From assembly GCA_011525805.1 (NCBI GenBank), contig WYBR01000109.1, positions 1 to 64,000 on the forward strand: a stretch of 64,000 bases of DNA, given 5' to 3'. Below, one piece after another: positions 11,921 to 41,141 of the stretch. A model generated the notes under the pieces. It saw only the letters and a list, made by a program, of their open reading frames with translations, did no database searches and had not been told where the DNA came from. The first letter of the stretch is position 1. The number at the start of each line of letters is the position of its first letter. A program made the position numbers and the translations under genes. Source of the stretch: Vicinamibacteraceae bacterium (GTDB taxonomy: Bacteria > Planctomycetota > Phycisphaerae > Phycisphaerales > UBA5793).

Positions 11921-11988
11921 CATTTGCAGCGGGGCCCGAATGAACGCCCCGCAGACGTGCCAATCCGGGGTGATATCCCTGATTCCGC

Positions 11989-12004: not shown

Positions 12005-12035
12005 GGAGCGGTGTGGCGTCTTTCAGGAGGCACGA

Positions 12036-14455: not shown

Positions 14456-14460
14456 AGCCC

Positions 14461-14937: not shown

Positions 14938-15061
14938 GAGCAGAGATGTCAAGGGGCCAAGGCATAAAGGGAATGAGTGTTCGGTTCGGTGGCGCCATGC
15001 GAGTCCGCTTGCGTCTTCGCCTCCAGCGCCTCGAGGAACTGAAGCGTCAGGAAACGGAAAC

Positions 15062-15721: not shown

Positions 15722-15788
15722 TCTGCCGCGAGGACGCGGCGGCTTGCCGCGGAAGCGATGGGACGATTCGCCGAGGAAGGACACGCCG

Positions 15789-17423: not shown

Positions 17424-17435
17424 GGCGGGTGGAGT

Positions 17436-19676: not shown

Positions 19677-19725
19677 AGGAGGGCGGCACCAATCTTGCAC
19701 CTTGAGCCGTGGAACGGAGTGAGCC

Positions 19726-21252: not shown

Positions 21253-22811
21253 GGCGCCCCCGCGCGACAGTTCGACCGATTCGGCCGGACGGGTCGAAGC
21301 CGCGACGGCGCCCGCCGGCGGCGGCGGCGGTTCGCGCAGCGCTCTTTCTCTCCCTCGCCGTCGCCGCGGGTTGCGGCAAGAGCGAGCAACGCGAGAGCGC
21401 CGAGCCCACAACGGCCGCGGCCGACACCGGCACGCGCTACGTCACCACCGCCCCAGGCCGAGCGCCTCCGATCGTCAGGCCCTCTTTCGTCGCCGCGGAG
21501 CACGCCGCGCCCAGGCCGACCGAAACGCTCACTCCAGATGCTTCGTGCGTTACCCCCGAATGCCACGCGACCTTCGGCACCGCCGACCGCGTGCACGGAC
21601 CCATCGCGGCGGGCGACTGCTTCTCCTGCCACGGCGAGGACGCGGGTGGGCACGTCTATCCCCTCCGCCGCGAAGGCGATCGCACCTGCACCTTCTGCCA
21701 CCAGACGGGGCAGATGCGTGAGCACCGCCATGCCGCGCTGGACAATCCCGGCTGCATGGGCTGCCACGATCCTCATACGGGCGGGAAGTTCCTTCTCGTG
21801 GCCGACTCGGTCGAGAAGGTCTGCCTCACCTGTCACGTGCTCGATGAGGGCAAGCACGCGCACGGCCCCTACGCCGCCGGCGAGTGCGCCGCGTGCCACC
21901 TGCCGCATGAATCGGATCACCCCGGCCTGTTGCGGGGCGGAAGCGGCGCCGATCACTGCTTTGCCTGCCACGCCGAGACCCGCCACGCCTTGGTCAACGC
22001 GCCGTACGTTCACGCGCCGGCCGCGAACGACTGCACGACCTGCCACAGCCCGCACGCGTCGGATCAGCCGAATCATCTGCGGCAGGCGATCGGCTCGCTC
22101 TGCCTCGACTGCCACACCGGCCTTGAGCAGGCGATCGAGGGCGCGACGACGGCGCACGCCGCGATCTTCACCGCCGACTCCTGCGCCAACTGCCACGATG
22201 CGCACGCCGCGGGCCGGCCGCGTCTGCTGCGCGACCGGCAAACGACGCTGTGTCTCTCGTGCCACAATCAACCCGTCGTCGCCAACGACGGTCGCCGCAT
22301 CCCCGACATGACGGCGAGCGTCGTCAACCGCCGCTTCCTGCACGGTCCGGTCGAGTCCGGCGACTGCTCCGCCTGCCACAACGTCCACGGCTCCTCGCAC
22401 GACCGCCTGCTGCGGCAGAACTTCCCGACGAGTTTCTATGCCAGGTTTGACCTTCAGAACTATGCCTTGTGCTTCAGTTGCCATCCGCAGGACCTGGTGC
22501 TCTCCGAGCGGACGACTTCGCTCACCGACTTCCGCGACGGGGATCGCAACTTGCACTATCTGCACGTGCACCGCGACGAGAAGGGCCGCACCTGCAAGAC
22601 CTGCCACGCGATCCACGGCTCGGACCTGCCGCGCCACGTCGCCACCGACGTTCCCTTCGAGAGTTCCGACTGGCTCATGCCCATCGGCTTTGAGCGCTTC
22701 GAGGACGGAGGCAAGTGCGCCCCCGGCTGCCACGTCGCCATGACCTATCGCCGCGGAGAGCCCGCGACGCCCCCGCCGGACGATCCGCAGAAACCAGGAG
22801 GTCAGCCATGA
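21249..22811 (+). CDS. pentadecaheme cytochrome c, lipoprotein (paralogue 2)
   Basis: 520 residues. A long Arg-rich n-region leads to a lipobox LAVAAGC, so the protein is predicted to be lipid-anchored. It has 13 CXXCH, first site CVTPECH (CX4CH) and last site CAPGCH (CX3CH), the same order as the genes at 12036 and 22808. The C-terminal block FRDGDRNLHYLHV, GRTCKTCH and GG-x-CAPGCHV is shared by all three. The lipid anchor suggests a membrane-bound relay. Coupled upstream (GTGA) and downstream (ATGA). Confidence 0.9.
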   Translation: MRRPRATVRPIRPDGSKPRRRPPAAAAVRAALFLSLAVAAGCGKSEQRESAEPTTAAADTGTRYVTTAPGRAPPIVRPSFVAAEHAAPRPTETLTPDASCVTPECHATFGTADRVHGPIAAGDCFSCHGEDAGGHVYPLRREGDRTCTFCHQTGQMREHRHAALDNPGCMGCHDPHTGGKFLLVADSVEKVCLTCHVLDEGKHAHGPYAAGECAACHLPHESDHPGLLRGGSGADHCFACHAETRHALVNAPYVHAPAANDCTTCHSPHASDQPNHLRQAIGSLCLDCHTGLEQAIEGATTAHAAIFTADSCANCHDAHAAGRPRLLRDRQTTLCLSCHNQPVVANDGRRIPDMTASVVNRRFLHGPVESGDCSACHNVHGSSHDRLLRQNFPTSFYARFDLQNYALCFSCHPQDLVLSERTTSLTDFRDGDRNLHYLHVHRDEKGRTCKTCHAIHGSDLPRHVATDVPFESSDWLMPIGFERFEDGGKCAPGCHVAMTYRRGEPATPPPDDPQKPGGQP

Positions 22812-24274
22812 GACTCCACCACCGACTGCTCGTCGCCGCGGGATCGCTCGCCGCCGGCGCGGCGCTGCTGGCGATGCAGGACCGGCCGCGAGCCGCGCGG
22901 CCGACGACCGCCGTCGCTCCCTCGTCGTGCGTGACGGCCGAGTGCCACGCCGACGTCAAGAAGCACGACACGCTGCACGGCCCCGTCGCGGTGGACGCCT
23001 GCGACGCCTGCCACGCTTCGGTCAGCGTCCCGGACCACACCTTTGCGCTCGTGCGCGACGCCAAGGACTTGTGCCTCTTCTGCCACGAGATGAACGTCGC
23101 CGGCGCCAAGACGGTTCACGAGCCGCTCACCACCGGCGACTGCCTCTCGTGCCACAGCCCGCACGGCGGGCCGAGCCGCCTGCTCCTCAAGGCCGCCAGC
23201 CCCTCCGCCCTCTGCCAGCAGTGCCATGAGAACGTCTTCGCCGGCAAGTCGGCGGTTCACGGCCCGGTCGCCGCGGGCGCCTGCGCCGCGTGCCACTCGC
23301 CGCACGCCTCGGAGCACGAGCATCTCCTGCTGGCGCAGGGCCGCGAACTCTGCCTCCAGTGCCACACGACGACGCGCACCCAGGTCGAGTCGATGCGCTA
23401 CGTTCATGGCCCGGTCAACACCGACTGCGCCGCCTGTCATGATCCGCACGCGTCCGATCACCCCATGATGCTGCATGACGCGCCTGGCGCGCTGTGCCTC
23501 TCCTGCCACGAGACGATCAAGCACATCGTGGACACCGCCACCGAGCAGCACGCCGCCGTCACCACCGACCAGGAGTGCCTCAACTGCCACGAATCGCACG
23601 CCTCGGATCATCCGCGCATCCTCAAGGGCGACATGATGGACTTGTGCCTCAAGTGCCACGACCGCGAGATCAAGATGCCCGACGGGCGCAACCTCGCCAA
23701 CATGAAGGCGGTCTTCGCCACCGGCACGAGCCTGCACGGGCCCGTGGCGCAGCACAACTGCGCCGCGTGCCACGAGATTCACGGCGGGGGCAACTTTCGC
23801 CTGCTCGTCCACGAATACCCGCCGCAGTTCTACGCCCCATTCAAGGAGGAGAGTTACGCCCTGTGCTTCTCCTGCCACGACAAGGCGCTCGTTCACGACG
23901 AACGCACCACGGCGCTGACGAACTTCCGCAACGGCGATCTCAACCTGCACTTCCTCCACGTCAACAAGGAGAAGAAAGGCCGCACCTGCCGCGCCTGCCA
24001 CGAAACCCACGCCAGCAACAAGGCCAACCACATTCGCGAGTGGGTGCTCTTCGGCGAGGGTTACAAACTCCCGATCAACTTCACCAAACTCGCCGAGGGC
24101 GGGTCGTGCGCGCCGGGCTGCCACGTGCCCTACGAATACAGCCGCACGACGCCGGTCGAGTATCCGCCGCCGGCGCCGGCGACCTGGCCAGGGGAACAGC
24201 CCGGGACCAACCCCGCGCCGAACCCCGCACCGAACTCCGCGCCGAACCCCGCCGACCGGCCCGACGGCCGCTGA
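22808..24274 (+). CDS. pentadecaheme cytochrome c (paralogue 3)
   Basis: 488 residues with an ordinary signal peptide (LLVAAGSLAAGAALLA). There are 13 CXXCH plus CVTAECH (first, CX4CH) and CAPGCH (last, CX3CH). The C-terminal tail is rich in Pro, Asn and Ala with NPAP/NSAP repeats and may tether the protein to the wall or a partner. AGGAGG six bases before the ATG gives a strong start, which overlaps the previous stop. Confidence 0.9.
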   Translation: MRLHHRLLVAAGSLAAGAALLAMQDRPRAARPTTAVAPSSCVTAECHADVKKHDTLHGPVAVDACDACHASVSVPDHTFALVRDAKDLCLFCHEMNVAGAKTVHEPLTTGDCLSCHSPHGGPSRLLLKAASPSALCQQCHENVFAGKSAVHGPVAAGACAACHSPHASEHEHLLLAQGRELCLQCHTTTRTQVESMRYVHGPVNTDCAACHDPHASDHPMMLHDAPGALCLSCHETIKHIVDTATEQHAAVTTDQECLNCHESHASDHPRILKGDMMDLCLKCHDREIKMPDGRNLANMKAVFATGTSLHGPVAQHNCAACHEIHGGGNFRLLVHEYPPQFYAPFKEESYALCFSCHDKALVHDERTTALTNFRNGDLNLHFLHVNKEKKGRTCRACHETHASNKANHIREWVLFGEGYKLPINFTKLAEGGSCAPGCHVPYEYSRTTPVEYPPPAPATWPGEQPGTNPAPNPAPNSAPNPADRPDGR

Positions 24275-27731: not shown

Positions 27732-29342
27732 TCAGTTGTCGTATTCCTCCGGCGAGTGGCGCTCGCCGTGGCATTCAAGGTAGCACTGGCCGCGGTAGCG
27801 GCCGTCGTCGATAAACTCGAGGCGGCCGGTGACGGGGTCGGGGAAGACGATGGAGATGTCGAAGTTGATGAGGTGGCTGTTGTGGCGCGTGCTGCCCTGG
27901 GCCGAGACGCCGTGCGCGTCGTGGCAGACGAAGCAGGGAGTGCGCTCCTCGACGATGTGCTTGCGGTGTTCGGAGAAGGACTCGTCGCCGAGGATGCTGT
28001 TGCGGCTGTGGCAGGTGTAGCAGAGGGCGTAGTTGGCGGCGCTCTCGCTGGAGTAGTCGTTCATGACGTAGCGCTTCATGAGCAGCGGCTCGCTGTTGGA
28101 GCCGTGCACGCCGTCCGGCCCTCCGCCGCCGGCCTTGGCGCCGGTGTCGGAGGTGTGGCAGTCGTTGCAGTAGATGACGCTCGCGGTCGTCCAGCCGGGC
28201 AGGAGGCTGGGCACGTCGCTGTTGCGCCCGGGCAAGGCGACGGGGTGGTAGGAGACGGCGGTGGAGTCGAACTTGAGGCGGTTGTTGGCGGTGGCCACCT
28301 GCCGTGCGACGCGCGGCGGCACGGCGTTCTGGTCGCCGTGGCACTTGAAGCAGACCTCGTATTCGAACTGGGCGGAGGGGAGCAGGGCGCCCGAGAGGCT
28401 CACGCCGCTGACCTGGCCGAAGTTCGGCGGGAGGCTGGGCGCCTGCGCCGTGCCGTGGCGCATCGTGTGGGCCTCGTGGCAATCGGTGCAGGTGACGTCG
28501 TAGGGGATCGGGTCGGGCGGATCGATCTCGCGATCGGTGTCGTGGACGTTGAGTTTGTGCAGGTCGGGGTCGATGTTGGGCGCGGCGGGGGAGGAGCCGT
28601 CGTGGCAGTTCATGCACGCGCGGGTGACGTTGGCGCCGCGGAGGAGGTAGGGCCCGCTCGGCGCGGCGTGGGGAGTGTGGCAGGCGATGCAGTCGCTGTG
28701 GCCGGCGACGGTGGTGGAGTCGATCTGGTGGCAGGCGCGGCAGAGTTCGGAATTGCCGTTGTGCATGACGAGGAACTGTCCGAGCGCGTTGTTGTGCGGG
28801 TCGTGGCAGGTGGTGCACTGAAGTTCGCCGTTGGAGTCGAGGCGTACGTCGTGGGGGAGGCTGGCGGGCGGCTTGAGGTGCGGGTCCTTCGCCGCCAGCG
28901 TCGAGGTGTAGCGGAAGGAGACGGGGTGGTCGTCGGAGAGGTCGGTGCCGAGGTTCGACCGGCCGGCGGGCATCGTCGTTACGCCGCTTCGCATCGTGAT
29001 GGGCAGCGGTCGTGACAGGACGGCTCCGAGCGCGATCGTTCCATCGTGGCAGGAGAGGCACATCTTGGAGACGCCGGTGGGCTGGCCGGGATCGGCGTCG
29101 AGCGCGCGGCTCGAATAGGGCGTGTAGGCGTCGAGCGGCATTGAGCGGTTCCACAGCGGCACGATCGGCGAAGACTGGTGCGGCGTGTGGCAGAAGATGC
29201 ACACCTGCGCCTCGGCCACGGCGCGAACCTCGCCCGGGCCGTCCGCCGAGAGATTGTGCAGGCTGTCCACGACGCTTGACTGCTGCGCGAGCGCGGCGGT
29301 CGGAACGAGGATCGCGGCGAGGAGCGGGAGGGTCGATTTCAT
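27732..29342 (-). CDS. dodecaheme cytochrome c
   Basis: 536 residues with a signal peptide (MKSTLPLLAAILVPTAALAQ). There are eleven CXXCH motifs and a last site CYLECH (CX3CH) near the C-terminus. Early motifs CIFCHTPH, CLSCHDGT and CTTCHDPH are of the doubled-CXXCH type; the 4-heme protein at 34634 shares the CHTPH, CHDGTVAL/IAL and DLTNDHPV/DLSDDHPV segments. It is the last gene of a minus-strand set with NHL lipoproteins and a beta-barrel, so a periplasmic or surface electron carrier for an outer-membrane conduit is inferred. Its ATG overlaps the upstream stop. Confidence 0.88.
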   Translation of the reverse strand: MKSTLPLLAAILVPTAALAQQSSVVDSLHNLSADGPGEVRAVAEAQVCIFCHTPHQSSPIVPLWNRSMPLDAYTPYSSRALDADPGQPTGVSKMCLSCHDGTIALGAVLSRPLPITMRSGVTTMPAGRSNLGTDLSDDHPVSFRYTSTLAAKDPHLKPPASLPHDVRLDSNGELQCTTCHDPHNNALGQFLVMHNGNSELCRACHQIDSTTVAGHSDCIACHTPHAAPSGPYLLRGANVTRACMNCHDGSSPAAPNIDPDLHKLNVHDTDREIDPPDPIPYDVTCTDCHEAHTMRHGTAQAPSLPPNFGQVSGVSLSGALLPSAQFEYEVCFKCHGDQNAVPPRVARQVATANNRLKFDSTAVSYHPVALPGRNSDVPSLLPGWTTASVIYCNDCHTSDTGAKAGGGGPDGVHGSNSEPLLMKRYVMNDYSSESAANYALCYTCHSRNSILGDESFSEHRKHIVEERTPCFVCHDAHGVSAQGSTRHNSHLINFDISIVFPDPVTGRLEFIDDGRYRGQCYLECHGERHSPEEYDN

Positions 29343-30499
29343 GGGGCAACCTCCTGCGAAGCGCGGGCTTCAGCCGAGTTCGGCGCGGGGGCGCGATAGT
29401 CGAAGGCCTGGATGCGGCGGTTGTAGGTGTCGGCGATCCAGAGGCGGTCGGCGACATCGATGTGAATGCCCGAGGGGAGCCAGAACTCGCCGGGCCCGCG
29501 CCCTTCGCGGCCGAAGGCCATGAGCAGCACCCCGTCGCTCGAATAGACCTGCACGGCCTCGAACTGGGCGTCGATGACGTAGAGATGATCCTGGCTGTCC
29601 ACCGCGACGCCCTTAGGCCGCGAGAAGTAGCCGGGCATGTCGCCGCGGCTTCCGATCTGGAGGCGCGGGAGGTAGGACGGGGATCTCTGCTGCGCAGTGC
29701 CGGGAGTGTCCGACGGCGCTTCGGGCACGAACTGCTGGATGCGGCAGTTGAGCGAGTCGCTGACGTAGAGGCGTCCCTCGTGGTCGAGGGCGACATCCAC
29801 GGGGAAGTTGAAGGAGCCGGGCGACGCGCCGCGCGAGCCGATGCGGGCGACGGGCAGTCCGGCGTCGTCGAGCACGACGACCTGGTGTGCGCCGGCGTCG
29901 GCGATGAACAGCAGTCCCCGGGCGTCGTCGCGCGCCAGGCCGCAGGGGCGAACGAGGTCGTCCTGCCCCCACGTGTCGATGAGCGCGCCGCGCGCGCCGA
30001 AGACGCGGATGACGCGGGCGCCGGAGTCGGCGACGAAGAGCCGCCCGTCGGCGCTGCGGGCAAGCCCGACGGGGCTGATGAAGGCGTCAGGCTCGGGCGG
30101 GGCCCAGCGTTCATAGGTGCGACGGGCGAGGTCGAAGACGTGGACGACGCGCCCGCCGCCGTCGGCGACGTAGAGCCGCTGCTGATCGTCGCATTCAACG
30201 GCGATCGGGCTGACGACGCCGAGGATGGGCGACTTGCCGAAGAAGGTCTCGTGAAGCGCTTCGCCGAGCGACCGGCCGGGCTTGAGGTCGGCGCTGGTGG
30301 CGATCTGGCCGACGTAGTGGATGCGCGGCGTGTCGGGCGGTCCGGGCCAGGAGATGGGCGAAGCCGGAGGCTCGAAGATCACGCCCGGCTTGGCGCATCC
30401 GGTGAGAGCCGACGCGCCGAGCAGCGCCGCGGCGAGGAGACCGCCGGCCGCGGCGCCTCTCCGGCTCACCTTCGTCAGGATGGAGTATCGGGCGGGCAT
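29339..30499 (-). CDS. NHL-repeat beta-propeller lipoprotein
   Basis: 386 residues. The lipobox LTGC predicts a lipoprotein. Six-blade NHL repeats are evident (IAVECDDQQRLYVADGGGRV; VGLARSADGRLFVADSGARV; VDVALDHEGRLYVSDSLNCR; KGVAVDSQDHLYVIDAQFEA; SGIHIDVADRLWIADTYNRR). NHL propellers often sit next to multiheme cytochrome and porin genes in metal-reducing bacteria and may scaffold them. Overlaps the downstream cytochrome start by 4 bp and follows the barrel gene by 6 bp. A paralogue is at 33201. Confidence 0.87.
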   Translation of the reverse strand: MPARYSILTKVSRRGAAAGGLLAAALLGASALTGCAKPGVIFEPPASPISWPGPPDTPRIHYVGQIATSADLKPGRSLGEALHETFFGKSPILGVVSPIAVECDDQQRLYVADGGGRVVHVFDLARRTYERWAPPEPDAFISPVGLARSADGRLFVADSGARVIRVFGARGALIDTWGQDDLVRPCGLARDDARGLLFIADAGAHQVVVLDDAGLPVARIGSRGASPGSFNFPVDVALDHEGRLYVSDSLNCRIQQFVPEAPSDTPGTAQQRSPSYLPRLQIGSRGDMPGYFSRPKGVAVDSQDHLYVIDAQFEAVQVYSSDGVLLMAFGREGRGPGEFWLPSGIHIDVADRLWIADTYNRRIQAFDYRAPAPNSAEARASQEVAP

Positions 30500-30505
30500 G
30501 GCGGT

Positions 30506-32551
30506 TCAGAACGTCCTCCGGAAGCCGACTTCGAGCGACTGCGCCGTTCGCTCCTCCGTGGGGGAGTCGAAGAAGGAGTTGCGCCCCGAGACGTAAATCT
30601 CCGTCTGGCGGTGTCTCCAGTTGAGGTTGAGGCGCTGCTCGAAGCCGTTCGAGTGTCCGTCGCGGTCGTCGCGCTCGTCGCGCCAGACAAGTTGGGCGCT
30701 GAGGCGCAGCGTGTCGGTCAACTGCTGGTTCCAGCCGGCGGTGACGAGGGCGAGGTCGACGTGGTTGGGGATGGAGGGAAAGTCGATCATCTGATAGGCG
30801 GCCGTGACATTGACGGACGAGCCGCGGCCGAGGGCGTGGACGTATCGCGCCTCGAACCGGGTCGCGTCGAAGGGAGAGATGGTGCTGTCGTACTGCTCGT
30901 ATTCGGCGCTGACGGTAAGCGGGCCGGTGTTGTAGTCGGCGCCGAAGATGAGGTCGCGCGTCTCGTCGAGGATGAAGAAGGTCGGGTCCGGGCTGTCGAT
31001 GTCGGCGTCGCGCTGGAAGTAGCGGACGTAGACGCCCAGGCCGCGGAGCGGGCCTTCGGCGATGTCGTAGCGGGCCGTGGTCCCGAGGCCGGTGGTCGAG
31101 ACGGTGCTGGCGGGCTCCGGGCCGATGGTGTAGTCGATGAGCACCGTCTGCCCGTCGAGGATGCTCCCGCCGATGACGCGGCGGATCTCGACGCGGTCGA
31201 CGAAGGCGTCCACGGTGTAGTCGAGCCCCTCGTCGTAGAAGATGAGTCCGGAGAGGTCGGTGATGACGATCGAGCCGGGGAGGATGTTCTGCCGGGCGAT
31301 GATGATCGGGGCGGGGTCGCTGAAGGTCCGCGCGTCGTCGAAGATGCGCAGCAGTTCGCCGCGCGGCCCGTCGTCGCGGATGTTGTGGCTCGCCGAGACC
31401 GTGGCGGAGAGCAGGCCCAACGGGACCTTCTTGGTGTAATCGAGGGCGATGTCGCCGAAGTACTCGTTGCTCGTGAAGCCGTCGACGTCGAGGGTCGAGG
31501 CCCCGAGGTTCGCCGTGGTCACCAGGCTCTCGAAGAGCCGGTGGCGGAGGTTGAAGTTGCCGCGCAGAAAGTCCTGGTTCGAGTCCTCGCGCTCGCGCGA
31601 CTCGTAGAACACGTCGTAGCGCGTCTGGAAGCGGTCGGTGTGGCGCAGGCGCAGCGACTCGTCGATGGTGATGCGGCGGAACGGCTCATCGCCCGTCTGC
31701 TCGAACCACCGGATGCGCGAGCGCAGTTCATCCTCGCGATCGTCGTCGAGGAAATAGGTGTGCAGGGCGGTGGCGTCGTGGCGGACGAACTCGAGTGCAG
31801 CGCGATTGGCGCCGCTCTGCTCGACGGCGTCCATCGTGTATTCGAGGCTGAGCGTCTGGCGCGCCGAGAGCAGGATGTTGCTGCGGATGTCGAAGGAGTC
31901 CTGCACGACGCCGAAATCGAGCAGGCCCCGGGCGTCGGTCTGCTCCTGGTCACGGTGGAAGTACTGTACGGTGGTGGGCGCGCGGTCGTTGACGAACTGG
32001 ACGATGCCGCCGTGCTCGGTGATGATCGAGTCGAAGGACGGGCCGAAGAGGCGGTCAATGTTGGTCTGAGTGCGGCGGCTGTAGGCGGTGACGGGCATCG
32101 AGGACTGGCCGAGGATGAGCGCGCGGAAATCGTAGTTCGTGTCGAGGGTGGTGGTCTCTTCGCGCAACTGGATCGACTCGGTGTCGAGCGTCTCGTTCTC
32201 GAGCAGGAGTCGGCCGGTGAGGGTGAGGTCGATGAAGTTGGGGTGGACGATGTAGGCGTCGGCGGAGATCTGGAGGCTGGGGCGGAAGATCTCCTGAGTG
32301 TCGCGCGTGGCGCGCGAGCCGGCCGCGCGGCGCTCCTCGGCGCGGTAGCGGGCCATGAGTTCGAGGACGGCCTCGATGCGCTCGATGACGAAGGACTCAA
32401 ACTGTTCGTCGCGCTGGCCCACGATGATGGGGCCTCCTTCCTCCGGGGGCGCCGGCTGCTGGGCGCGGGCCGCCGACCCCATTCCGACCGCCGCTGCGGC
32501 CGTTGCCGTCGCGAGCGCTCCGGCCCGCCGCTGGCTGGCGTGGGGCGTCAC
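30506..32551 (-). CDS. outer-membrane beta-barrel protein (porin-like partner of multiheme cytochromes)
   Basis: 681 residues with a signal peptide (ALATATAAAAVGMGSAARAQ). After an acidic N-terminal helix region there are many alternating-residue strands of 8-12 residues (for example LTLTGRLLLENETL, YDVFYESRERED, GLGVYVRYFQRDADI, LTVSAEYEQYDS). It ends in a C-terminal Phe (EVGFRRTF), the classical outer-membrane signature. Length is similar to MtrB/PioB-type conduit barrels, but the N-terminal CXXC of MtrB is absent. The GTG start overlaps the upstream stop (GTGA); an in-frame extension upstream lies inside the 5-heme gene and is rejected. Confidence 0.8.
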   Translation of the reverse strand: MTPHASQRRAGALATATAAAAVGMGSAARAQQPAPPEEGGPIIVGQRDEQFESFVIERIEAVLELMARYRAEERRAAGSRATRDTQEIFRPSLQISADAYIVHPNFIDLTLTGRLLLENETLDTESIQLREETTTLDTNYDFRALILGQSSMPVTAYSRRTQTNIDRLFGPSFDSIITEHGGIVQFVNDRAPTTVQYFHRDQEQTDARGLLDFGVVQDSFDIRSNILLSARQTLSLEYTMDAVEQSGANRAALEFVRHDATALHTYFLDDDREDELRSRIRWFEQTGDEPFRRITIDESLRLRHTDRFQTRYDVFYESREREDSNQDFLRGNFNLRHRLFESLVTTANLGASTLDVDGFTSNEYFGDIALDYTKKVPLGLLSATVSASHNIRDDGPRGELLRIFDDARTFSDPAPIIIARQNILPGSIVITDLSGLIFYDEGLDYTVDAFVDRVEIRRVIGGSILDGQTVLIDYTIGPEPASTVSTTGLGTTARYDIAEGPLRGLGVYVRYFQRDADIDSPDPTFFILDETRDLIFGADYNTGPLTVSAEYEQYDSTISPFDATRFEARYVHALGRGSSVNVTAAYQMIDFPSIPNHVDLALVTAGWNQQLTDTLRLSAQLVWRDERDDRDGHSNGFEQRLNLNWRHRQTEIYVSGRNSFFDSPTEERTAQSLEVGFRRTF

Positions 32552-33180
32552 GGCCCGTCCTCGCTGACTGACTCGACGGGCGGCGGCTCCGGCGGCGCCG
32601 GCGGCGACAGATCGATGCGGAGCAAATTGCGATCCAGCCCGCCGTGGCCGTTGTGGCAGGCGAGGCAGTCCTTCGACAGATCCTCGTGCTGCGGCGTGCC
32701 GGCGGCGCGAAGGTCGTCCGTGGCGTGGCATTGCAGGCACAGTTTCGGCGTCGGCTCGATGAGCAGGTGCGCATTGAGAGACTCGTGCGGCTCATGGCAG
32801 GCGAGGCAGTCCACTGACGCGACCGGGCCGTGCATCACCGGGTACTCGTGCGCCACATCCTCGTGGCACTTGAGGCAGACCTGCGACGTGACGCCGCTGT
32901 AGCCCGAAAGCGACATGGTGAACTGGCCGACCTCGCCGTGGCAATCCGCGCAGCGGTCGGCGGCGTAGGGCTCGTGAAGCATCACGGAGAGGGCGACGGG
33001 CTGGCCTTCGTCATCGACCTCGGCGGTGCGCATCGAGGGAGGCAGCGGCACGCCGTCGAAGAAGAAACTGAGCACCTCATAACTGGCTTCAGGAGTACTG
33101 CAACTCCACAATGCAAGTGCGGCCAGCGCGAGCAGCCAGCCCAGAGGGTGGATTCGGGGAGCGGTCGATCGAAGTCTCAT
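32548..33180 (-). CDS. pentaheme cytochrome c lipoprotein
   Basis: 210 residues. Lipobox ALALWSC gives a lipid anchor. Five CXXCH sites (CADCH, CLKCH, CLACH, CLQCH, CLACH) lie in residues 70-190, with a Pro/Glu-rich tail. The size and heme count fit the inner cytochrome of a porin-cytochrome conduit, with the barrel gene directly downstream and coupled. That role is an inference from order. Confidence 0.88.
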   Translation of the reverse strand: MRLRSTAPRIHPLGWLLALAALALWSCSTPEASYEVLSFFFDGVPLPPSMRTAEVDDEGQPVALSVMLHEPYAADRCADCHGEVGQFTMSLSGYSGVTSQVCLKCHEDVAHEYPVMHGPVASVDCLACHEPHESLNAHLLIEPTPKLCLQCHATDDLRAAGTPQHEDLSKDCLACHNGHGGLDRNLLRIDLSPPAPPEPPPVESVSEDGP

Positions 33181-33200
33181 CGATCACGGTCTCGCTTTCG

Positions 33201-34445
33201 TCAATCCTTGAGATCGGCCGGAACGTCGTCCGGGGCCACCTGACCTCCGACGCCCTGCTCGACCTTGGCGGCGTCCTCCACCCCCAGCGCGACCTGCGCC
33301 TGGCTGGCGCGAATCGCCTCGACGCTCACGCCCGGCCGCAGTTGCCCAAAGGCATAGACCGACACCTTGTTCTCCGTGAACTGGTTCGTCACAAGGATCA
33401 GGTACTCCGGTTCGAAGTCGGGGTGAATGTAGGGCTTGAAGAGGTCGAGATCGCCCTTGTGGATCGTGACGCCGGCCGGAAGGTACATCGCGCCCGGATG
33501 CACGCCCGTTGCGCCGAAGAAGGTGAGGATGTACCCCTCGGCGTCGAAGACCTGGACGTTCTGGAACGCGGAGTCGACGATGTAAATCAGGCCGTCTTCA
33601 TCGACGGCGAGGTGCTTGGGCCGGCGCAGGGCTCCAAGGTTGTTGGTGATCGTGCCGAACGAGAAGAGGAAGGTCCCGTCGGGGCTGAACTTCTGCATCT
33701 TGCAGCGTATGACGTCGGTGACGTAGACGTTGCCGTCCTTGTCCACTTCGATGCCAAGTGGCCGGACGAACTTGCCGTCTTCGTCGCCCTTCTCGCCGAT
33801 GTGGCCGATCGGGGCGCCGTTGAAGCGATTGAGAATCTCGACGCGCTGGCCGACGAAGTTGCTCACGTAGAGGCGGTCGCCGAAGACCGCCACTCCGGAG
33901 GGCTGCAGGTCCTTCATCCCGTAGGTCGTGACGAAACGCTCGTTCGCGTCGAAGACGAAGATCATGTTGCGGCCGATGTCGGCGACGTACTTCATTCCAT
34001 CGTCGGCGACGGCGACGTCGGTGGGACGGAGAAGGATTTCGCGCCCGGTGGTTCCCATGACGCGGGTCTGGCGGCTGCGCAGGTCGAAGACCATAACGCA
34101 GGCGGCGCGGATGTCGCAGGTGTAGATTCGACCGTTCCACATCTCGACGCCGTAGGGCTTGTTGACGGCGGTGTCGGTGGCCGATTCCTTGCCGTAGACG
34201 ATGTCCGCCAGCGTGTTCTTCTTGACTTCAGCGACCTGGCCGCTGTGCTGGTAGGAGACGAGGAACTGGATTCGCGGCTCGTCGGGATAGGGCGGCCAGA
34301 AGGCGTACTCCGTCGGCGCGGCGGGCGCCAGTTCCGCCTTGGGAGAAGAAGAACACCCGAAGGTGAGCAGAAGCGCTCCCGCGGCAAGCAGCAGCGAGGC
34401 GCGGGTTCGTGAATGCAGTGGCGAGGTCAGTCGGCCGGGGATCAT
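33201..34445 (-). CDS. NHL-repeat beta-propeller lipoprotein (second copy)
   Basis: 414 residues. Lipobox LLTFGC. Repeats such as YGVEMWNGRIYTCDI, TDVAVADDGMKYVADI, SGVAVFGDRLYVSNF, LGIEVDKDGNVYVTD and KHLAVDEDGLIYIVD form a six-bladed propeller. It shares the leader WPPYPDEPRIQFLVSY with the counterpart WPGPPDTPRIHYVGQI in 29339-30499, so the two are paralogues. Probably an outer-membrane or periplasmic scaffold for the adjacent cytochromes. Separated from the tetraheme gene by a terminator-like hairpin. Confidence 0.87.
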   Translation of the reverse strand: MIPGRLTSPLHSRTRASLLLAAGALLLTFGCSSSPKAELAPAAPTEYAFWPPYPDEPRIQFLVSYQHSGQVAEVKKNTLADIVYGKESATDTAVNKPYGVEMWNGRIYTCDIRAACVMVFDLRSRQTRVMGTTGREILLRPTDVAVADDGMKYVADIGRNMIFVFDANERFVTTYGMKDLQPSGVAVFGDRLYVSNFVGQRVEILNRFNGAPIGHIGEKGDEDGKFVRPLGIEVDKDGNVYVTDVIRCKMQKFSPDGTFLFSFGTITNNLGALRRPKHLAVDEDGLIYIVDSAFQNVQVFDAEGYILTFFGATGVHPGAMYLPAGVTIHKGDLDLFKPYIHPDFEPEYLILVTNQFTENKVSVYAFGQLRPGVSVEAIRASQAQVALGVEDAAKVEQGVGGQVAPDDVPADLKD

Positions 34446-34554
34446 GGCTGGGCCTCTCTGTCGTCTTGCCGGCGCGGCTGTCGGTCTGTCGGTCCGGGGG
34501 GCCGTGGCGCTCGGTCCTGAGCCGAGCGTCCGCGCCCATCCGGTCCATCAAGCC

Positions 34555-34600
34555 TCTCCCCCCCTCGGGCCGCGCCGATCAACGCCCGAGAGGGGGAGGA
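34555..34600 (-). terminator. terminator hairpin after the tetraheme gene
   Basis: A 12-bp GC-rich stem with one bulged A pairs 34559-34570 with 34584-34596 across a 13-nt loop, 34 bp after the minus-strand stop at 34634. It could act as an attenuator inside the cytochrome cluster. Confidence 0.6.
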
Positions 34601-34633
34601 GTGAACATTCAGGATTCGGTCCGCCTGCGAGCC

Positions 34634-35302
34634 TTACTTGATGTGGCACGCCAGGCACATCTGGCTTCCGGTGTTGCTGATCCGGAGGAGGTCGTCGTGT
34701 CCGCCGCGACGGTGCGGCTCATGGCAGGTCGCGCAGGAGATGACCGGCTGGACCTGGCCGTTGACGATCATGTCGCGGAGGCGACCCATGCTCGAGTTGC
34801 CGAAGGTCTGGCCTTCCCACGTTGAGCGCGGGTTGTAGCGGGTGCCTTCGTAGATCGGGTTCCACACGGCCGATGAGCCGACGGGATGGTCGTTCGTCAG
34901 GTCGGTGCCGATCAGCTCGCTGCCGAAGATGAACTGGCTTCCGTTGACCCCGCCGAAACTGTCGAGGGCGACGGTGCCGTCATGGCAGCCCATGCAGAGG
35001 ATGCTGTAGGCGTCGAGGGCGTCGTTGCGGGGCATCGGGCCGTCCTGCGTCTCGTACACCTGGCCCTCGGAGGGCAGCGAGTGGTTCCACAGCCGCTCCG
35101 TGCCATAGCCGTTGATGTCAACGTGCATGGCGTTGTGCGGCGTGTGGCAGGGGAGACAGATCTGGTTGCGAGACCAGCCCGCGTTCGTGAAGTCGTGGGC
35201 ACTTCCTCGAATCTGGGCGTTCGCGCCTGAGGCGCAGAGGATGCCTGCTGCCCCCAAGGCAAGCACCTTCAAACCGAGGTTGTTCATGTGGCGCCGTTTC
35301 AT
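34634..35302 (-). CDS. tetraheme cytochrome c
   Basis: 222 residues with a signal peptide (LKVLALGAAGILCASGANAQ). Four CXXCH sites: CLPCHTPH, CMGCHDGT, CATCHEPH and CLACH near the end. Segments LWNHSLPSEGQ and DLTNDHPV resemble the first third of the 12-heme protein at 27732. AAAGGAG seven bases before the ATG at 35302 fixes the start; a long in-frame extension upstream is rejected. Promoter element at 35400-35417 is identical to the one before ccmE. Confidence 0.88.
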   Translation of the reverse strand: MKRRHMNNLGLKVLALGAAGILCASGANAQIRGSAHDFTNAGWSRNQICLPCHTPHNAMHVDINGYGTERLWNHSLPSEGQVYETQDGPMPRNDALDAYSILCMGCHDGTVALDSFGGVNGSQFIFGSELIGTDLTNDHPVGSSAVWNPIYEGTRYNPRSTWEGQTFGNSSMGRLRDMIVNGQVQPVISCATCHEPHRRGGHDDLLRISNTGSQMCLACHIK

Positions 35303-35417: not shown

Positions 35418-35769
35418 TGGGGCGGGGTGAATTCCCCGAACCGGACCGCGGGCAACCCCATAATCACCGGTCCAATCGCCCTCGACGCCGGTCTGCGGCC
35501 GCACCGGAGCGCCGCCGTCCCAGCCCCAAGAAAGTCCATCCGGACTCAATCCCACGGTTGAGAATCTCTCGGCGGCCGATGTGCGGCGCCGCGGATCTCG
35601 GACGTGCCTGGCCGGCGCGCCGTTGAGTGCAATTCGCTCAGCGCCGTCCCCGCATCCCCTCGCGGCGACCCGGTCGCAAGCGGGTGGATTCGTGCTTTCC
35701 GCCCAATTCACGCTCTCGCAATCAGGGAATTCACCTCGCATCAGCGGTGAAGGGGCCCAAGCCCGGGTC

Positions 35770-35787
35770 TCTGGCACGGATGTTGTT
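35770..35787 (+). promoter_or_regulatory. sigma54-like promoter element of the ccm operon
   Basis: TCTGGCACGGATGTTGTT, an exact 18-bp copy (opposite strand) of 35400-35417. Predicted transcription start near 35798, between the element and the GGAG before ccmE. Confidence 0.45.
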
Positions 35788-35821
35788 GTCGGCGAGGCGG
35801 AAGCGGCACCGGAGACCAGCC

Positions 35822-36250
35822 ATGACTCGCATTCGCACCAAACTCATCGTCGCCCTGCTGATCGTCGGCGGAGCCGTGGCGTACCTCGTCCAGGCCGGCG
35901 TTCGCGGCGGCTGGGTCTACTCGATGGACGCCGACGCCTTCCTTCAGCGCACCGAATTCCACGACCGCCGCGTCCGCCTGAGCGGCAAGGTGGCGTGGGA
36001 GAATGTCGAGTCCAATCCCGCGTCGCTGATGGCGAAGTTCGACCTCGAGAGCAACGACCAGAAGGTCCCAGTCGTGTATCGCGGGCCGATCCCCGACATG
36101 TTCCGCCCGGGGCATGACGTGGTGATCGAGGGTCGGCTGGACGCCGAAGGCGTCTTCCAGGCCGACGTCCTTCTCACCAAGTGCGCCAGCAAGTACGACG
36201 AGGCCTCGCCGCATGGCGAAGGCGAAACGATGATGGAGGCGGATCAATGA
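35822..36250 (+). CDS. ccmE: heme chaperone CcmE, Cys (CxxxY) variant
   Basis: 142 residues: N-terminal membrane anchor (LIVALLIVGGAVAYLV) and an OB-fold domain (RVRLSGKVAWENVES; VPVVYRGPIPDMFRPGHDVVIEG). CcmE normally binds heme through His in HxxxY. Here the site reads CASKY (Cys121, Tyr125), the CxxxY form known from Desulfovibrio and archaea (so-called System I*). It receives heme from CcmC and gives it to CcmF. First gene of the ccm operon, overlapping ccmF by 4 bp. Confidence 0.92.
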   Translation: MTRIRTKLIVALLIVGGAVAYLVQAGVRGGWVYSMDADAFLQRTEFHDRRVRLSGKVAWENVESNPASLMAKFDLESNDQKVPVVYRGPIPDMFRPGHDVVIEGRLDAEGVFQADVLLTKCASKYDEASPHGEGETMMEADQ

Positions 36251-38412
36251 TCCCGACACTGGGCACCCTGACGCTCGCCGTCGCGGCCGTGGCATGCGTC
36301 GCCGTCGTGATATCAAGCCTGTCGGCGGCGCGCTTTGACTCGCGGGGCGCACTTCGCGCGGCTCGATGGGGCCTCGTCGGCTACGCGGCGCTTATCACCA
36401 TCGCCTCGGCGTTTCTGGTCACCGCTCTCTTGCAGAGCGACTTCCGGCTTGAATACGTTGCCTCCTACACGGAGCGCGCCCTGCCCACGGGTTACAAACT
36501 CGCCGCATTCTGGGCCGGGCAGCAGGGCAGCCTGCTCCTCTGGGCCGGAATGATCGCCTGGATGAGCGCCTTCGCCGCGTGGTCGCGGTCGTCGAATCGC
36601 GGCTTGGGCGAGGCCGTCACGCTCGGCGTACTCGCGGTGATCTGCGGCTTCTTCGCCTGCCTGCTTCTCTTCGCGGCCAACCCCTTCGAGGTCGTGGCCG
36701 GCGCCGTGCCCGCGGATGGCCGCGGCCTCAACCCGATGCTCCAGGATCTCGCGATGCTGGCGCACCCGCCGACGCTGTTCCTCGGCTACGCCGGATTCGC
36801 CGTGCCCTTCGCGGCGATGGCCGGCGCGCTCGCGGAGCGGCGCACCGACGCCCGGTGGCTCGTTGACATCCGCCGATGGGTGCTCTTCGCCTGGTTGGCG
36901 CTGGGCATCGGCATCATCATCGGCGCCTGGTGGGCGTACATCGAACTCGGCTGGGGCGGCTACTGGGCGTGGGACCCGGTCGAGAACGCCTCGCTCCTCC
37001 CCTGGCTCACCGGCACGGCCCTCATTCACTCGATGATCATGCAGGAGCACCGCGGCGTCTTCAAGCGCTGGAACGTCGCACTCCTCGCGGCGACCTTCAT
37101 TCTCTGCATCTTCGGAACCTACATCACGCGAAGCGGCATCGTCTCGTCGGTCCACTCCTTCGGCGAGTCGCTGGTGGGAACCTTCTTCTTCGTCTTCATC
37201 ATCGTGCTGCTCATCGGCAGCATGGGGATCATCGCCTGGCGCTGGTGGCTCCTGGCGCCGCAGCGGCGCCTTGCCAGTCTGCTCGAACGCGAGGGCGTCG
37301 TGCTGATCGCCAACGTGGTGCTCGTGCTCATGATGCTCATCACGCTGGTGGGCACGATGCTGCCGGTGATCACGCGCACGTTCATGCCCAACGAGATCAC
37401 CGTGGACCAGTCGTTCTACAACCGGATCGTGGCGCCGATGGGGCTGGCGCTGGTCGGCTTCATGGCCCTGGCGCCGGCGCTGGTGTACGGCCAGCAGGCC
37501 GGCCGCCGCCTCGGGCGCGGATTGATCGTCCCGGTGGTTGCAGCCGTCCTGGTGACGGCGCTGGTCATCGGCCTGGGGGTGCGAAATGTCTGGGCGCTGC
37601 TCGCCGCCTTCTTTGCCGCCCTCGCCGCCAGTGCAGTGGCCGTCAACTTCCTCCATTCCCTTCGCATGGAGCGCGCTCACGCGCAGGTCGGATGGGTTTC
37701 GGCGGCGGCCCGGCTGCTCGACTCGAATCACCGGCGCTGGGGCGGGTTCGTCGTCCACCTCGGCATCGCCCTCATCGTCATCGGCTTCGCGTGGTCGAGC
37801 CTCTTCCCGGAGAAGACCACCCACCAGGTAACGCCGGGGCAGACCTTCGACGTCGGCCGCTACTCGCTCACTTTCAAGGACCTCGAGGAGCAGCGGCGCG
37901 AGAACTACACCGCGGTCGTCGCAGTCGTTGCTGCCGTCCTGCCCGACGGCACGACGATCGACGTTTCGCCCGAGCGGCGCTTCTACGACAAAGCGGAGGA
38001 GTCGTCGGCCCAGGTCGCGGTCCGCTCTGGCCTGCGCGAGGACCTCTACCTCATCCTCGCCGGCTGGGAAGCGGGCGGCAAGGTGGTGGCGCTCCAGGCC
38101 ATCATCAATCCCCTGACGATCTGGATCTGGATCGGCACGGGCGTGCTCACGCTCGGTTCACTCATCTGCCTCGCACCGCGGATCGGAAAGGCCGCCGGCG
38201 TGGCGCTCAACGGAGGAAAGAGACACGCGGAGGACATCACGAAGGACATGAGGGCTCCGGCCACCAATAGGTCGTCGGCGGACACCGGCGAACGCGAGGA
38301 CAGCAGAACTTCACCACGACGGCCGCATCGACCGGTGCTCGAGCCCGCGTCCGCGGCCATGTTCAACCCGGCTGATTCCTCACCCACGCGCCTCTCCACC
38401 GGACCGGCCTGA
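36247..38412 (+). CDS. ccmF: cytochrome c heme lyase CcmF
   Basis: 721 residues and about 15 membrane helices. Family marks: AFWAGQQGSLLLWAG, AHPPTLFLGYAGFAVPFA, the WWD heme-binding loop GWGGYWAWDPVENASLLPW, and a periplasmic domain followed by a final helix (IWIWIGTGVLTLGSLICLAP). CcmF is the ligation core of the System I pathway. The last 60 or so residues (from NGGKRHAED) are polar, low-complexity and not part of the family, so the true end or function of this tail is unclear. ATGA overlap with ccmE. Confidence 0.95.
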   Translation: MIPTLGTLTLAVAAVACVAVVISSLSAARFDSRGALRAARWGLVGYAALITIASAFLVTALLQSDFRLEYVASYTERALPTGYKLAAFWAGQQGSLLLWAGMIAWMSAFAAWSRSSNRGLGEAVTLGVLAVICGFFACLLLFAANPFEVVAGAVPADGRGLNPMLQDLAMLAHPPTLFLGYAGFAVPFAAMAGALAERRTDARWLVDIRRWVLFAWLALGIGIIIGAWWAYIELGWGGYWAWDPVENASLLPWLTGTALIHSMIMQEHRGVFKRWNVALLAATFILCIFGTYITRSGIVSSVHSFGESLVGTFFFVFIIVLLIGSMGIIAWRWWLLAPQRRLASLLEREGVVLIANVVLVLMMLITLVGTMLPVITRTFMPNEITVDQSFYNRIVAPMGLALVGFMALAPALVYGQQAGRRLGRGLIVPVVAAVLVTALVIGLGVRNVWALLAAFFAALAASAVAVNFLHSLRMERAHAQVGWVSAAARLLDSNHRRWGGFVVHLGIALIVIGFAWSSLFPEKTTHQVTPGQTFDVGRYSLTFKDLEEQRRENYTAVVAVVAAVLPDGTTIDVSPERRFYDKAEESSAQVAVRSGLREDLYLILAGWEAGGKVVALQAIINPLTIWIWIGTGVLTLGSLICLAPRIGKAAGVALNGGKRHAEDITKDMRAPATNRSSADTGEREDSRTSPRRPHRPVLEPASAAMFNPADSSPTRLSTGPA

Positions 38413-38468
38413 CCCGCCCATGTCCTTCGTGATCTGCTTCGCATGTCCCCACCTCGGAAGGTCGAATC

Positions 38469-39593
38469 ATGAACACCGCCCTGACCCTTGCATCGCTGCT
38501 CACCTTGATCGCCGCCGGCGCCGCGCCGGCGCAGGAGACCCCCTCCGCGCCGCCGGCGACCCCCGAGGCGATTCCTCAGGCGACTCCGCCGCAGGCCGCG
38601 CCGCTCGGCGAGGCTGAACTGCGCGAGAGGATGGCCGGAGGCAACGGCTCGCTCGCCATCCGCGCCATTCAGGGAACGCCCTACGGCAATGAGGTCGGCA
38701 TCGCGCCCGTTGAGATCATCCTCGTCCACCGCGGCCAGGTCGTCCACAACGAGAAGACGCAACTCGACGAGCACGGCGTGGTCGTCGTCGAGGGCCTCCC
38801 CGTCGCCATGGAAGTCACTCCCATCGTGCAGGTGAACTACTCCGGCGTCTTCTACCAGGAGACCGGACCCAACCTCACGCCCCAGGCCAACCAGGCCAGC
38901 ATCGAGATCACCGTCTACGACACGACCGATCAGCGGCCGGACTGGTCGATTGCGATGCGCCACGTCATGATCGAGAAGTCGGACAAGGGCCTGCTCGTCT
39001 CCGAGACGGTTGTGACGAGCAACGAGGCCACGCAGACCTGGCTGGGCCAGCCCGTCGATTCAAGCCCCGACGCGAAGCGCACCACTGCCGAGTTTCAGTT
39101 GCCCGCAGGCGCGCAGGACGTGCAACTCGTCGGCGGCTTCCACGGCTGGTGCTGCACGACGCTGAGCGACTCGGGCCTGCTCGGCGTGCAGATGCCCATG
39201 ATGCCCGGAAGGGCGCAGTACCGCTTCTCCTACCTCGTGCCCGTCAAGGGAACCGAGGCGAGCTTGGCGCTGAGCGCGCCGGTTCGGACGGACCACGTCA
39301 TCGCCTTCATGGCCGACGACGGCACGCAAGTGACGACGACCGGGATGACGGACGCCGGCGCCGAGGCGATGGGCGACTCGCGCGTGCGCCTTTTCCAGGC
39401 CGAAGCCCTGGCCGCGAACCAGATCGCGGGCCTGTCGTTCGCCGGCCTGGCGCCCGCGGGTTCGCTCGAAGCGGTCAGCAGCGCCAACAGCCGGATCAAA
39501 CTCTTCGCGGCGGTGGGGGCTGGCGTGCTGCTTCTCGCCGGGATCGTCGTCGTGCTGATGAAGGCGCCGCGCCCCGCCGCGGCGGCCGGCTGA
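38469..39593 (+). CDS. secreted membrane-anchored protein of unknown function within the ccm operon
   Basis: 374 residues: signal peptide (LASLLTLIAAGAAPAQ), a Pro/Ala-rich linker, a beta-rich region (AIRAIQGTPYGNEVGIAPVEI), a second domain with HGWCCTTLS near residue 225, and a C-terminal membrane helix (LFAAVGAGVLLLAGIVVVLM) with a short Arg/Pro cytoplasmic tail. No known family is recognised. It sits where other operons carry ccmG or ccmH and has an adjacent Cys pair but no CXXC. It may supply part of the missing apocytochrome-handling function, or simply be a periplasmic transport or adhesion factor. Confidence 0.75.
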   Translation: MNTALTLASLLTLIAAGAAPAQETPSAPPATPEAIPQATPPQAAPLGEAELRERMAGGNGSLAIRAIQGTPYGNEVGIAPVEIILVHRGQVVHNEKTQLDEHGVVVVEGLPVAMEVTPIVQVNYSGVFYQETGPNLTPQANQASIEITVYDTTDQRPDWSIAMRHVMIEKSDKGLLVSETVVTSNEATQTWLGQPVDSSPDAKRTTAEFQLPAGAQDVQLVGGFHGWCCTTLSDSGLLGVQMPMMPGRAQYRFSYLVPVKGTEASLALSAPVRTDHVIAFMADDGTQVTTTGMTDAGAEAMGDSRVRLFQAEALAANQIAGLSFAGLAPAGSLEAVSSANSRIKLFAAVGAGVLLLAGIVVVLMKAPRPAAAAG

Positions 39594-39637
39594 GCGCGCT
39601 CGGCCGCGTCGCCGTGTGCGACGCTGAAAGGACGCCG

Positions 39638-40456
39638 ATGAACGGCCGACTCGCCATCCCGACTTCCGACACGCCGCAGCCCGCGAACCGCGGCGCCCGC
39701 GGGGATCGCGCGCCGGCGTCCGGCCTGCGGCTGACTCCGATGATCGATGCCGCGGTGGCCAGCCCCGCCGTCCGCTCCGTCAACCTGTGCAAGGTGATTG
39801 ACGATCGCCCGATTCTCCGCGACCTGACCTTCGAACTTCCCGCGGCGTGCTACGTCGGCCTGCTCGGCGCCAACGGCGCCGGCAAGACGACGCTGCTGCG
39901 GCTGCTCTCGACGCTGACGACGCCGACACGCGGCGACCTCGAGATCTTCGGCCGCAGCGTGCGCGGCCACGGCCCCGCCATCCGCGCCGGCATCGGGTTG
40001 ATCGGCCACCAGCCGATGCTCTACCGCGATCTCTCGGCGCTCGAGAACCTGGTCTTCTTCGGGCGCCTGCACGACCTGTCGGAGCCGACCGTTCGCGCAA
40101 TGGACCTGCTCGAGTTCGTCGGCCTGGCGGACCGCGCCCACGACGCGGTCAAGACGTTCAGCCGCGGCATGGTGCAGCGCGTCTCGATCGCGCGGTCGCT
40201 GCTGCACGAGCCTCGCCTGCTGCTCGCCGACGAGCCCTTTGCGGGCCTTGACGCGCCCTCGGCTCGGACGGTCGAGCGCCTGCTCGAAGAACTCAATGGG
40301 CGGGGGATGGCGGTCATCCTCGCCAACCATGACGTTCGACAAAGCCTGCGGCTGGCGCAGCGCGTGCTCGTGCTGCGGCGCGGGCGGCTTGCGCTTGATG
40401 CGCCCGCCGCGTCCCTGAGCGCCGACGAGGCGCTCGAGGAGATCGAGAAGCGATGA
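39638..40456 (+). CDS. ccmA: heme exporter ATP-binding protein CcmA
   Basis: 272 residues. Walker A GANGAGKTTLL, signature SRGMVQRVSIARSL, Walker B LLLADEPFAGLD and switch His (ANHDVRQ). A 45-residue N-terminal extension precedes the ABC domain; the domain itself starts about SVNLCKVI, so an internal start is possible. AAAGGA supports the ATG at 39638. CcmA with CcmB and CcmC frees heme-loaded CcmE. Confidence 0.93.
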   Translation: MNGRLAIPTSDTPQPANRGARGDRAPASGLRLTPMIDAAVASPAVRSVNLCKVIDDRPILRDLTFELPAACYVGLLGANGAGKTTLLRLLSTLTTPTRGDLEIFGRSVRGHGPAIRAGIGLIGHQPMLYRDLSALENLVFFGRLHDLSEPTVRAMDLLEFVGLADRAHDAVKTFSRGMVQRVSIARSLLHEPRLLLADEPFAGLDAPSARTVERLLEELNGRGMAVILANHDVRQSLRLAQRVLVLRRGRLALDAPAASLSADEALEEIEKR

Positions 40457-41130
40457 CCCGGGCTGTGCGGCACATCGCGATGCTCACGCTCAAGGACTTG
40501 CGCATCGAGGCGCGCGGCCGGCAGACGGTCGGCCTCGTCGCCGTCCTCGCGGTGCTCATCGTCGTCGTGCTCGGCATCGGCCTGAGCCCGGGCCGCGGCG
40601 CCGACGGCCTGAGCGCGACGGCGATCCTCTGGGTCGCCTACCTCTTCGGCGGCGTGCTCGTCTTCGAGCGCACGATGGAGGTGGAGCGGCACGACGATGC
40701 CCTGGCCGGCCTGCTGCTGGCGCCGGTGGACCGCGGGGCGATCTTCGCCGCCAAACTCCTTGCCAACCTGCTTCTCATGTTCGCGATCGCCGTGATCGTG
40801 ACACCCGTCGCCGTGCTGTTCTTTCACTTCGACCTCTCCGCCGCGCCCGGGGGGTTCGCGGCGGTGATGCTCGTGAGCATGGTCGGCTATGCCGCGATCG
40901 GGACGCTCTTTGCCGCGCTGACGAGTTCGACGCGCCTGGCGGGCGGGCTGCTGGCGATGCTCGTCTTCCCCGTGGCGCTGCCGCTCGTGCTCGCTTCGAC
41001 GCGCCTGCTGCACGGCGTGTTCGAGCAGGGCGAGGCGCTCGGCGGGGCCGGCCTGGCCGTGCTCATCGCCTTCGATCTGATTTTCCTCGTCGTATCCTGG
41101 CTCGTCTTCGAGATGGTCCTCGAAGCCTAA
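40453..41130 (+). CDS. ccmB: heme exporter membrane subunit CcmB
   Basis: 225 residues with six membrane helices and the family features TLKDLRIEARGRQ at the N-terminus and VFERTMEVERHDDALAGLLL after helix 2. It forms the ABC complex with CcmA, with which it overlaps by 4 bp. Confidence 0.94.
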   Translation: MTRAVRHIAMLTLKDLRIEARGRQTVGLVAVLAVLIVVVLGIGLSPGRGADGLSATAILWVAYLFGGVLVFERTMEVERHDDALAGLLLAPVDRGAIFAAKLLANLLLMFAIAVIVTPVAVLFFHFDLSAAPGGFAAVMLVSMVGYAAIGTLFAALTSSTRLAGGLLAMLVFPVALPLVLASTRLLHGVFEQGEALGGAGLAVLIAFDLIFLVVSWLVFEMVLEA

Positions 41131-41141
41131 GGAGCGTTGCC

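Follow-up and report, generated by a model that had tools for sequence, protein, structure and literature searches.

A conserved planctomycete gene cluster and its probable role as an outer-membrane electron conduit for an OmcE-type cytochrome filament

The first 64,000 nucleotides of contig WYBR01000109.1 (assembly GCA_011525805.1, Vicinamibacteraceae bacterium, placed by GTDB in the Phycisphaerales lineage UBA5793), hereafter the window, hold six densely packed minus-strand genes which encode, in order of transcription, a tetraheme cytochrome (c4), an NHL lipoprotein (NHL1), a pentaheme lipoprotein (c5), an outer-membrane beta-barrel, a second NHL lipoprotein (NHL2) and a 12-heme cytochrome (c12). 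All six open reading frames (ORFs) were confirmed at the coordinates given in Table 1. We consider it rather probable that together they specify a path for electrons across the outer membrane, built to serve a cytochrome filament of OmcE type. An earlier note on this DNA had proposed a conduit, and that reading is supported by the conservation of the set, by the co-occurrence of barrel and c12, by the homology of c5 to MtrA and by the adjacent quinol-side cytochromes and cytochrome c maturation (Ccm) genes. Our analysis goes beyond it on two points, namely the OmcE-like domain found within c12 and a make-up that is shared with the published Uet (undecaheme electron transfer) pathway.

The family profile of c4 matches the subunit of the OmcE filament (PDB 7TFS) from end to end (E 6.9e-40) as well as the multi-chain PDB entry 9YUQ (E 4e-36), and the window protein taken as a single sequence finds 7TFS at E 2.9e-16. 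Full-length similarity, four hemes and a bis-His ligation indicated by conserved His residues (distal His 36, 56, 139 and 197 are almost invariant) are all features of the OmcE nanowire family, and c4 is, as judged by its sequence, a full-length relative of this nanowire subunit. In OmcE itself, heme 2 receives a His ligand from the adjacent subunit (PMC12203936). The earlier pointer to NHL proteins beside nanowire cytochromes was apt, since c4 itself belongs to the OmcE nanowire family. Furthermore, 7TFS and 9YUQ are the sole strong PDB matches of the c12 profile, through residues 11-211 (7TFS, E 1.7e-44), and hhalign aligns the c4 family with c12 at 100% (E 3e-46); the remaining eight hemes of c12 have no strong PDB match. 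All complete c12 homologues possess the 11 CXXCH motifs and the single CX3CH, 14 His residues outside these motifs are invariant, and the distal His 29, 55, 139 and 183 of the OmcE-like part are conserved in 19 of 19 sequences. Hence c12 looks like an OmcE-like domain fused to eight more hemes, as the anchor between a filament and its conduit would be. Among 343 genomes surveyed at a cut-off of E<=1e-18, OmcE-like sequences occur in 16, with stand-alone tetraheme genes in 13, and all 16 belong to the set carrying the conduit (p=5e-21); a nanowire-type subunit was therefore not seen in the phylum without the conduit.

The pentaheme lipoprotein resembles half of MtrA. Its profile finds the MtrA of the MtrCAB structure as best PDB match (6R2Q_A, E 1e-26; next match 9e-10), chain A being identified as MtrA through PMC12203936 because the chain label in the file is wrong, and c5 matches TIGR03508 at 6e-17, which is under the curated cut-off. 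The ten-heme feature of MtrA/DmsE is absent, as c5 has five hemes and only a few of its relatives have 9 or 10. A motif like C-x-[YH]xxLSFFFDGVP lies right after the lipid-bearing Cys in 17 of 17 aligned c5 relatives and is also present in the 9- and 10-heme versions. A 10-heme relative takes the place of c5 in three genomes (G190, G397 and G412), and in two others (G174 and G057) the usual position is empty and a 9-heme relative is encoded slightly farther off.

The barrel falls outside the MtrB family. The earlier note had described a 681-residue barrel with a terminal Phe and without the CXXC of MtrB; the protein indeed ends in RRTF and contains no cysteine at all, and a C-terminal aromatic residue is found in 17 of 20 aligned members. 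Membership of the MtrB family was tried and rejected, with no match to PF11854 and 1.2% in hhalign against a planctomycetote MtrB set, whose members, as a positive control, find 6R2Q_B at 4e-39. The barrel profile has no match in the PDB, and Pfam Porin_4 is matched weakly (2.6e-6). The density of amphipathic strands is like that of MtrB-family barrels, with a rough count of 25 peaks at threshold 1.3 versus 34 in the MtrB family and at most 12 in the NHL and c12 controls. The solved MtrB-family structure has 26 strands, and scaling from this calibration gives a rough estimate of about 20 strands for the present barrel.

The best-conserved stretch of this protein is a non-barrel-like beta segment (residues ~395-475, window ~31127-31369; SIVVTDxxGLxxYxEGxDYxV...RVEIRR...GGxIxDGxTVLVDY), and an NCBIfam model for a phage tail tube is matched by 13 of the 20 members through residues ~417-486 (best 4.6e-7; the window copy is under the cut-off). 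We read this weak match as a small beta fold common to both, and set a phage origin aside. A lipobox precedes the barrel in about a third of the members (L033, L034, L040, L041, L043 and L045), which is unusual for an outer-membrane barrel. The genome under study has no MtrB-family gene; genuine members of that family are encoded by G042, G086, G249 and G258 (three of them by G258), four other planctomycetote genomes, all of which lack the present barrel.

Profile searches of 392 planctomycetote genomes indicate that the set is conserved as such. The barrel is found in 20 genomes, c12 in 21 and both in 19 (Fisher p=4e-29), the one barrel-only and two c12-only genomes corresponding to partial matches (G046 and G306) and a contig edge (G077). 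The barrel is thus conserved with the cytochrome genes, a point on which the earlier note had made its reading depend. The carriers belong to ~18 of the 266 genera. Across about 24 loci, c5, barrel, NHL2 and c12 follow one another in this order as far as the contigs reach, even though barrel identity falls as low as 19-26%, which places the cluster far beyond chance; NHL1 and c4 usually lie upstream, with NHL1 adjoining c4 or c5 in most loci and 15-heme genes nearby, and NHL2 separates barrel from c12 in every locus whose contig extends that far. The closest barrel by named record is that of Phycisphaerales bacterium UBA5793 (68% identity), and within the set c12 shows the strongest conservation (44-79% identity). 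Pairwise distances are correlated (barrel-c12 r=0.84, barrel-NHL1 0.82; 0 of 2000 permutations), so that the genes have been passed on as one unit. Carriage of the cluster by plasmids or phages was rejected: the plasmid sequences searched gave no match to c12, c4 or barrel, the annotated phage records searched gave none to c4, and viral contigs scanned with the c5 alignment gave none either.

The general features of porin-cytochrome conduits, that is a barrel, a lipoprotein cytochrome and a second multiheme cytochrome, are encoded and conserved together here. The heme counts of 12, 5 and 4 given by the earlier note were upheld, with c12 bearing a CX3CH (CYLECH) besides its CXXCH motifs, and both NHL lipoproteins were recognised by Pfam and by their signal peptides. 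CXXCH occurs 20 times in the six frames of the region versus 0.2 +/- 0.4 times in shuffled sequence. The barrel gene is packed against its neighbours much as had been noticed, c5/barrel and NHL2/c12 overlapping by 4 bases each and 6 bases separating barrel from NHL2; translational coupling of these four genes is therefore likely, while NHL1 precedes c5 by 20 bases and c4 lies 188 bases upstream of NHL1. A scan for promoters and terminators gave no signal above chance. Localisation of all proteins was judged by signal peptides alone; according to a signal peptide scan and sequence inspection, NHL1, NHL2 and c5 have signal peptides of lipobox type and no Asp at +2.

Table 1. Coordinates of the conduit genes and of related features in the window
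Feature	Position	Strand	Description
c4	34634-35302	-	Tetraheme cytochrome c, OmcE family nanowire-type subunit by sequence; 222 aa, 4 CXXCH, plain signal peptide
NHL1	33201-34445	-	NHL beta-propeller lipoprotein, 414 aa; Pfam NHL 1.2e-16; lipobox ..LTFGC-SS
c5	32548-33180	-	Pentaheme lipoprotein, 210 aa, 5 CXXCH; like half of MtrA
c5 motif C-STPEASYEVLSFFFDGVP	33046-33102	-	Immediately past the lipid-anchored Cys
Barrel	30506-32551	-	Outer-membrane beta-barrel, 681 aa, GTG start, C-terminal RRTF
NHL2	29339-30499	-	NHL beta-propeller lipoprotein, 386 aa; Pfam NHL 2.9e-25; lipobox ..ALTGC-AK
c12	27732-29342	-	12-heme cytochrome, 536 aa, plain signal peptide; 11 CXXCH + 1 CX3CH
OmcE-like tetraheme domain, c12 N terminus (residues ~11-207)	28722-29312	-	Profile and hhalign
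Two 15-heme doubled-CXXCH cytochromes	21249-22811, 22715-24274 (as called)	+	Probably same pathway
Multiheme protein with cytochrome b domain	15744-17423	+	Pfam; candidate quinol-side partner
Multiheme protein with Ni_hydr_CYTB domain	17436-19676	+	CbcL-like architecture; Pfam; candidate quinol-side partner
Multiheme protein with NapC/NirT domain	19726-21252	+	Pfam; candidate quinol-side partner
CcmE, CcmF, ABC ATPase, CcmB and CcmC-like genes	35627-41846	+	Cytochrome c maturation; Pfam

In the conduit that we favour, electrons from the neighbouring quinol-side and 15-heme cytochromes would arrive at the barrel, and c5, as a lipid-anchored half-MtrA, would pass them through or along it. On the outside, c12 would take them up, its OmcE-like N-terminal domain serving as the first (base) subunit for a c4 polymer, and the two NHL lipoproteins would act as propeller scaffolds that keep c12, together with the base of the filament, at the outer membrane. 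We infer in this way the formation of a complex, the position of c5 at the barrel, the outer-surface location of c12, the polymerisation of c4 and the roles of the NHL proteins; the direction of the electrons would be that of mineral reduction or of uptake. In c12, the filament unit continues into eight additional hemes at the very position where another subunit would otherwise attach, which suggests that the protein forms a base or cap. More specifically, and only tentatively, since we hold it for possible rather than probable, c12 may be a nanowire anchor, made of an OmcE subunit and an eight-heme adaptor, seated on a new non-MtrB barrel with a half-MtrA wire. If so, the filament would be seated physically and electrically on its own conduit, and the fusion would fix its polarity.

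Several points weigh against such a conduit. A lipid anchor is missing from the 12-heme protein, and ExtA and ExtG, the dodecaheme proteins of Geobacter conduits, are predicted to be periplasmic (PMC6148476), so c12 could be inside. In Desulfovibrio ferrophilus, deletion of cytochromes that neighbour NHL genes, a case likened to ours by neighbourhood only, left Fe(III) oxide reduction unimpaired (PMC9769857). An AlphaFold model of the barrel, built on an alignment of the window and L002 sequences, was discarded (predicted local distance difference test, pLDDT, 27.8; predicted template modelling score, pTM, 0.20), and with the rough estimate of ~20 strands a cytochrome may or may not fit inside. 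Lastly, c4 is encoded away from the cluster in G190 and G034 and was not found in G184 and G324, where contigs end.

The main alternative is an ordinary porin-cytochrome conduit of inverted topology, in which c12 would be a periplasmic carrier, c5 an outer-surface lipoprotein and c4 an independent secreted cytochrome or filament, related to the c12 domain by common ancestry and nothing more. The lack of a lipobox in c12 agrees with such a topology, and Geobacter ExtABC and ExtEFG have equal heme numbers, with a dodecaheme protein in the periplasm, a pentaheme lipoprotein and a barrel of 18 or 21 predicted strands (PMC6148476), a likeness that extends to ExtABCD and was drawn by description only. 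The barrel, pentaheme and dodecaheme proteins of our cluster match no NCBIfam equivalog model above its cut-off. The NHL lipoproteins and the OmcE-like subunit, on the other hand, belong to the planctomycete cluster. The inverted arrangement, which we judge unlikely, leaves unexplained why the OmcE-like domain of c12 has been kept whole, with every one of its distal His, and why OmcE-like genes were never seen without the conduit.

A good deal more doubtful is a reading in which the barrel and the two NHL lipoproteins serve chiefly to secrete or assemble the c4 filament, primed by c12 and c5. The export and assembly of cytochrome nanowires is an unresolved matter (PMC12307469) and the barrel, NHL2 and c12 genes, tightly packed or overlapping, are inseparable across genomes, as an apparatus of this kind would have it. 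However, the barrel-coupled c5 is like MtrA, a transmembrane wire, and its 9- and 10-heme versions fit a wire of variable length. Although many doubled-CXXCH cytochromes are without assigned roles, a periplasmic redox or respiratory cluster (e.g. for detoxification) with a solute porin and no extracellular electron transfer is very improbable, because the OmcE and MtrA homologies and the Uet precedent point outward and because, by the ORF list and Pfam, no reductase-like catalytic domain is encoded between c4 and c12.

The kind of system to which the favoured conduit belongs is already known, because its make-up matches that of Uet, found in Tenderiales and some Gallionella. As outlined in the passage of PMC10734462 that treats the pathway, citing Eddie et al. 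2022, Uet comprises the 11-12-heme UetJ, the tetraheme UetA, the NHL proteins UetHI, the beta-barrel UetC, the peptidyl-prolyl isomerase (PPIase) UetB and the triheme UetDEG. Compared by composition only with this outline, our locus likewise unites a cytochrome of 11-12 motifs, a tetraheme cytochrome, two NHL proteins and a barrel. It differs in adding an MtrA-like 5/9/10-heme lipoprotein with the SFFFDGVP motif and in coming from another phylum; for the UetB-type PPIase and the triheme UetDEG of that outline, there is no ORF between c4 and c12, and the CXXCH runs in the window include no triheme protein. What is new here is thus a variant of the Uet-like make-up, with c5 and without triheme cytochromes and PPIase. 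With the OmcE filament of Geobacter sulfurreducens, the likeness resides in c4 and the N-terminal domain of c12, with four hemes and conserved distal His, whereas the OmcE unit of c12 is fused to eight further hemes and c4 is known here from genes alone. With MtrCAB (6R2Q), the cluster shares an MtrA-like cytochrome coupled to a barrel gene, but the barrel is not MtrB, c5 usually has 5 hemes rather than 10 and there is no MtrC. In Geoalkalibacter ferrihydriticus, Ga0056053_02426-02431 encode an MtoA-like cytochrome, an OmcE homologue and two NHL proteins, with no mtoB reported (PMC12016550); the locus resembles ours in bringing these together, and may be another case in which the present barrel family was overlooked.

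A 2025 review (PMC12307469) names the anchoring of cytochrome nanowires in the cell envelope, and their redox coupling to it, as an open question. Specific proteins to test in this respect are available in the jointly inherited filament subunit, the fusion of such a subunit with eight further hemes, the barrel and the MtrA-like wire. The cluster would also place filament-type extracellular electron transfer in ~18 genera of Planctomycetota, a phylum for which the literature searched (open papers only) describes no such cluster, and it offers searches for conduits a second barrel family that MtrB models miss.

The surroundings of the cluster are rich in related genes. A very heme-rich run at 11727-24274 includes three 15-heme proteins, and a sigma-54 response regulator is encoded alongside (9709-11112); 15-heme genes flank the cluster in most other loci too. 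Since quinol-side, 15-heme and Ccm genes share the window, an electron route from the quinol pool to the outer surface encoded by one island is plausible.

Relatives of c4 are also encoded elsewhere. The genome contains two more OmcE-like tetraheme genes outside the window (C77:106554-107216 and C104:7540-8160). Full-length OmcE-family tetraheme genes are found on five IMG/VR contigs listed as viral (L046:9923-10540, L047:9986-10627, L048:9842-10600, L049:7541-8221 and L050:10031-10621), where they match the c4 profile at E 4e-51 to 2e-61; no second multiheme gene is present in the stretches examined. Four of these five contigs measure 166-536 kb, and the larger ones have phage-like neighbours (DnaB-like helicase, DNA primase, S74 tail fibre, RNA ligase and RtcB). 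Large phages may have a nanowire-type cytochrome among their auxiliary genes.

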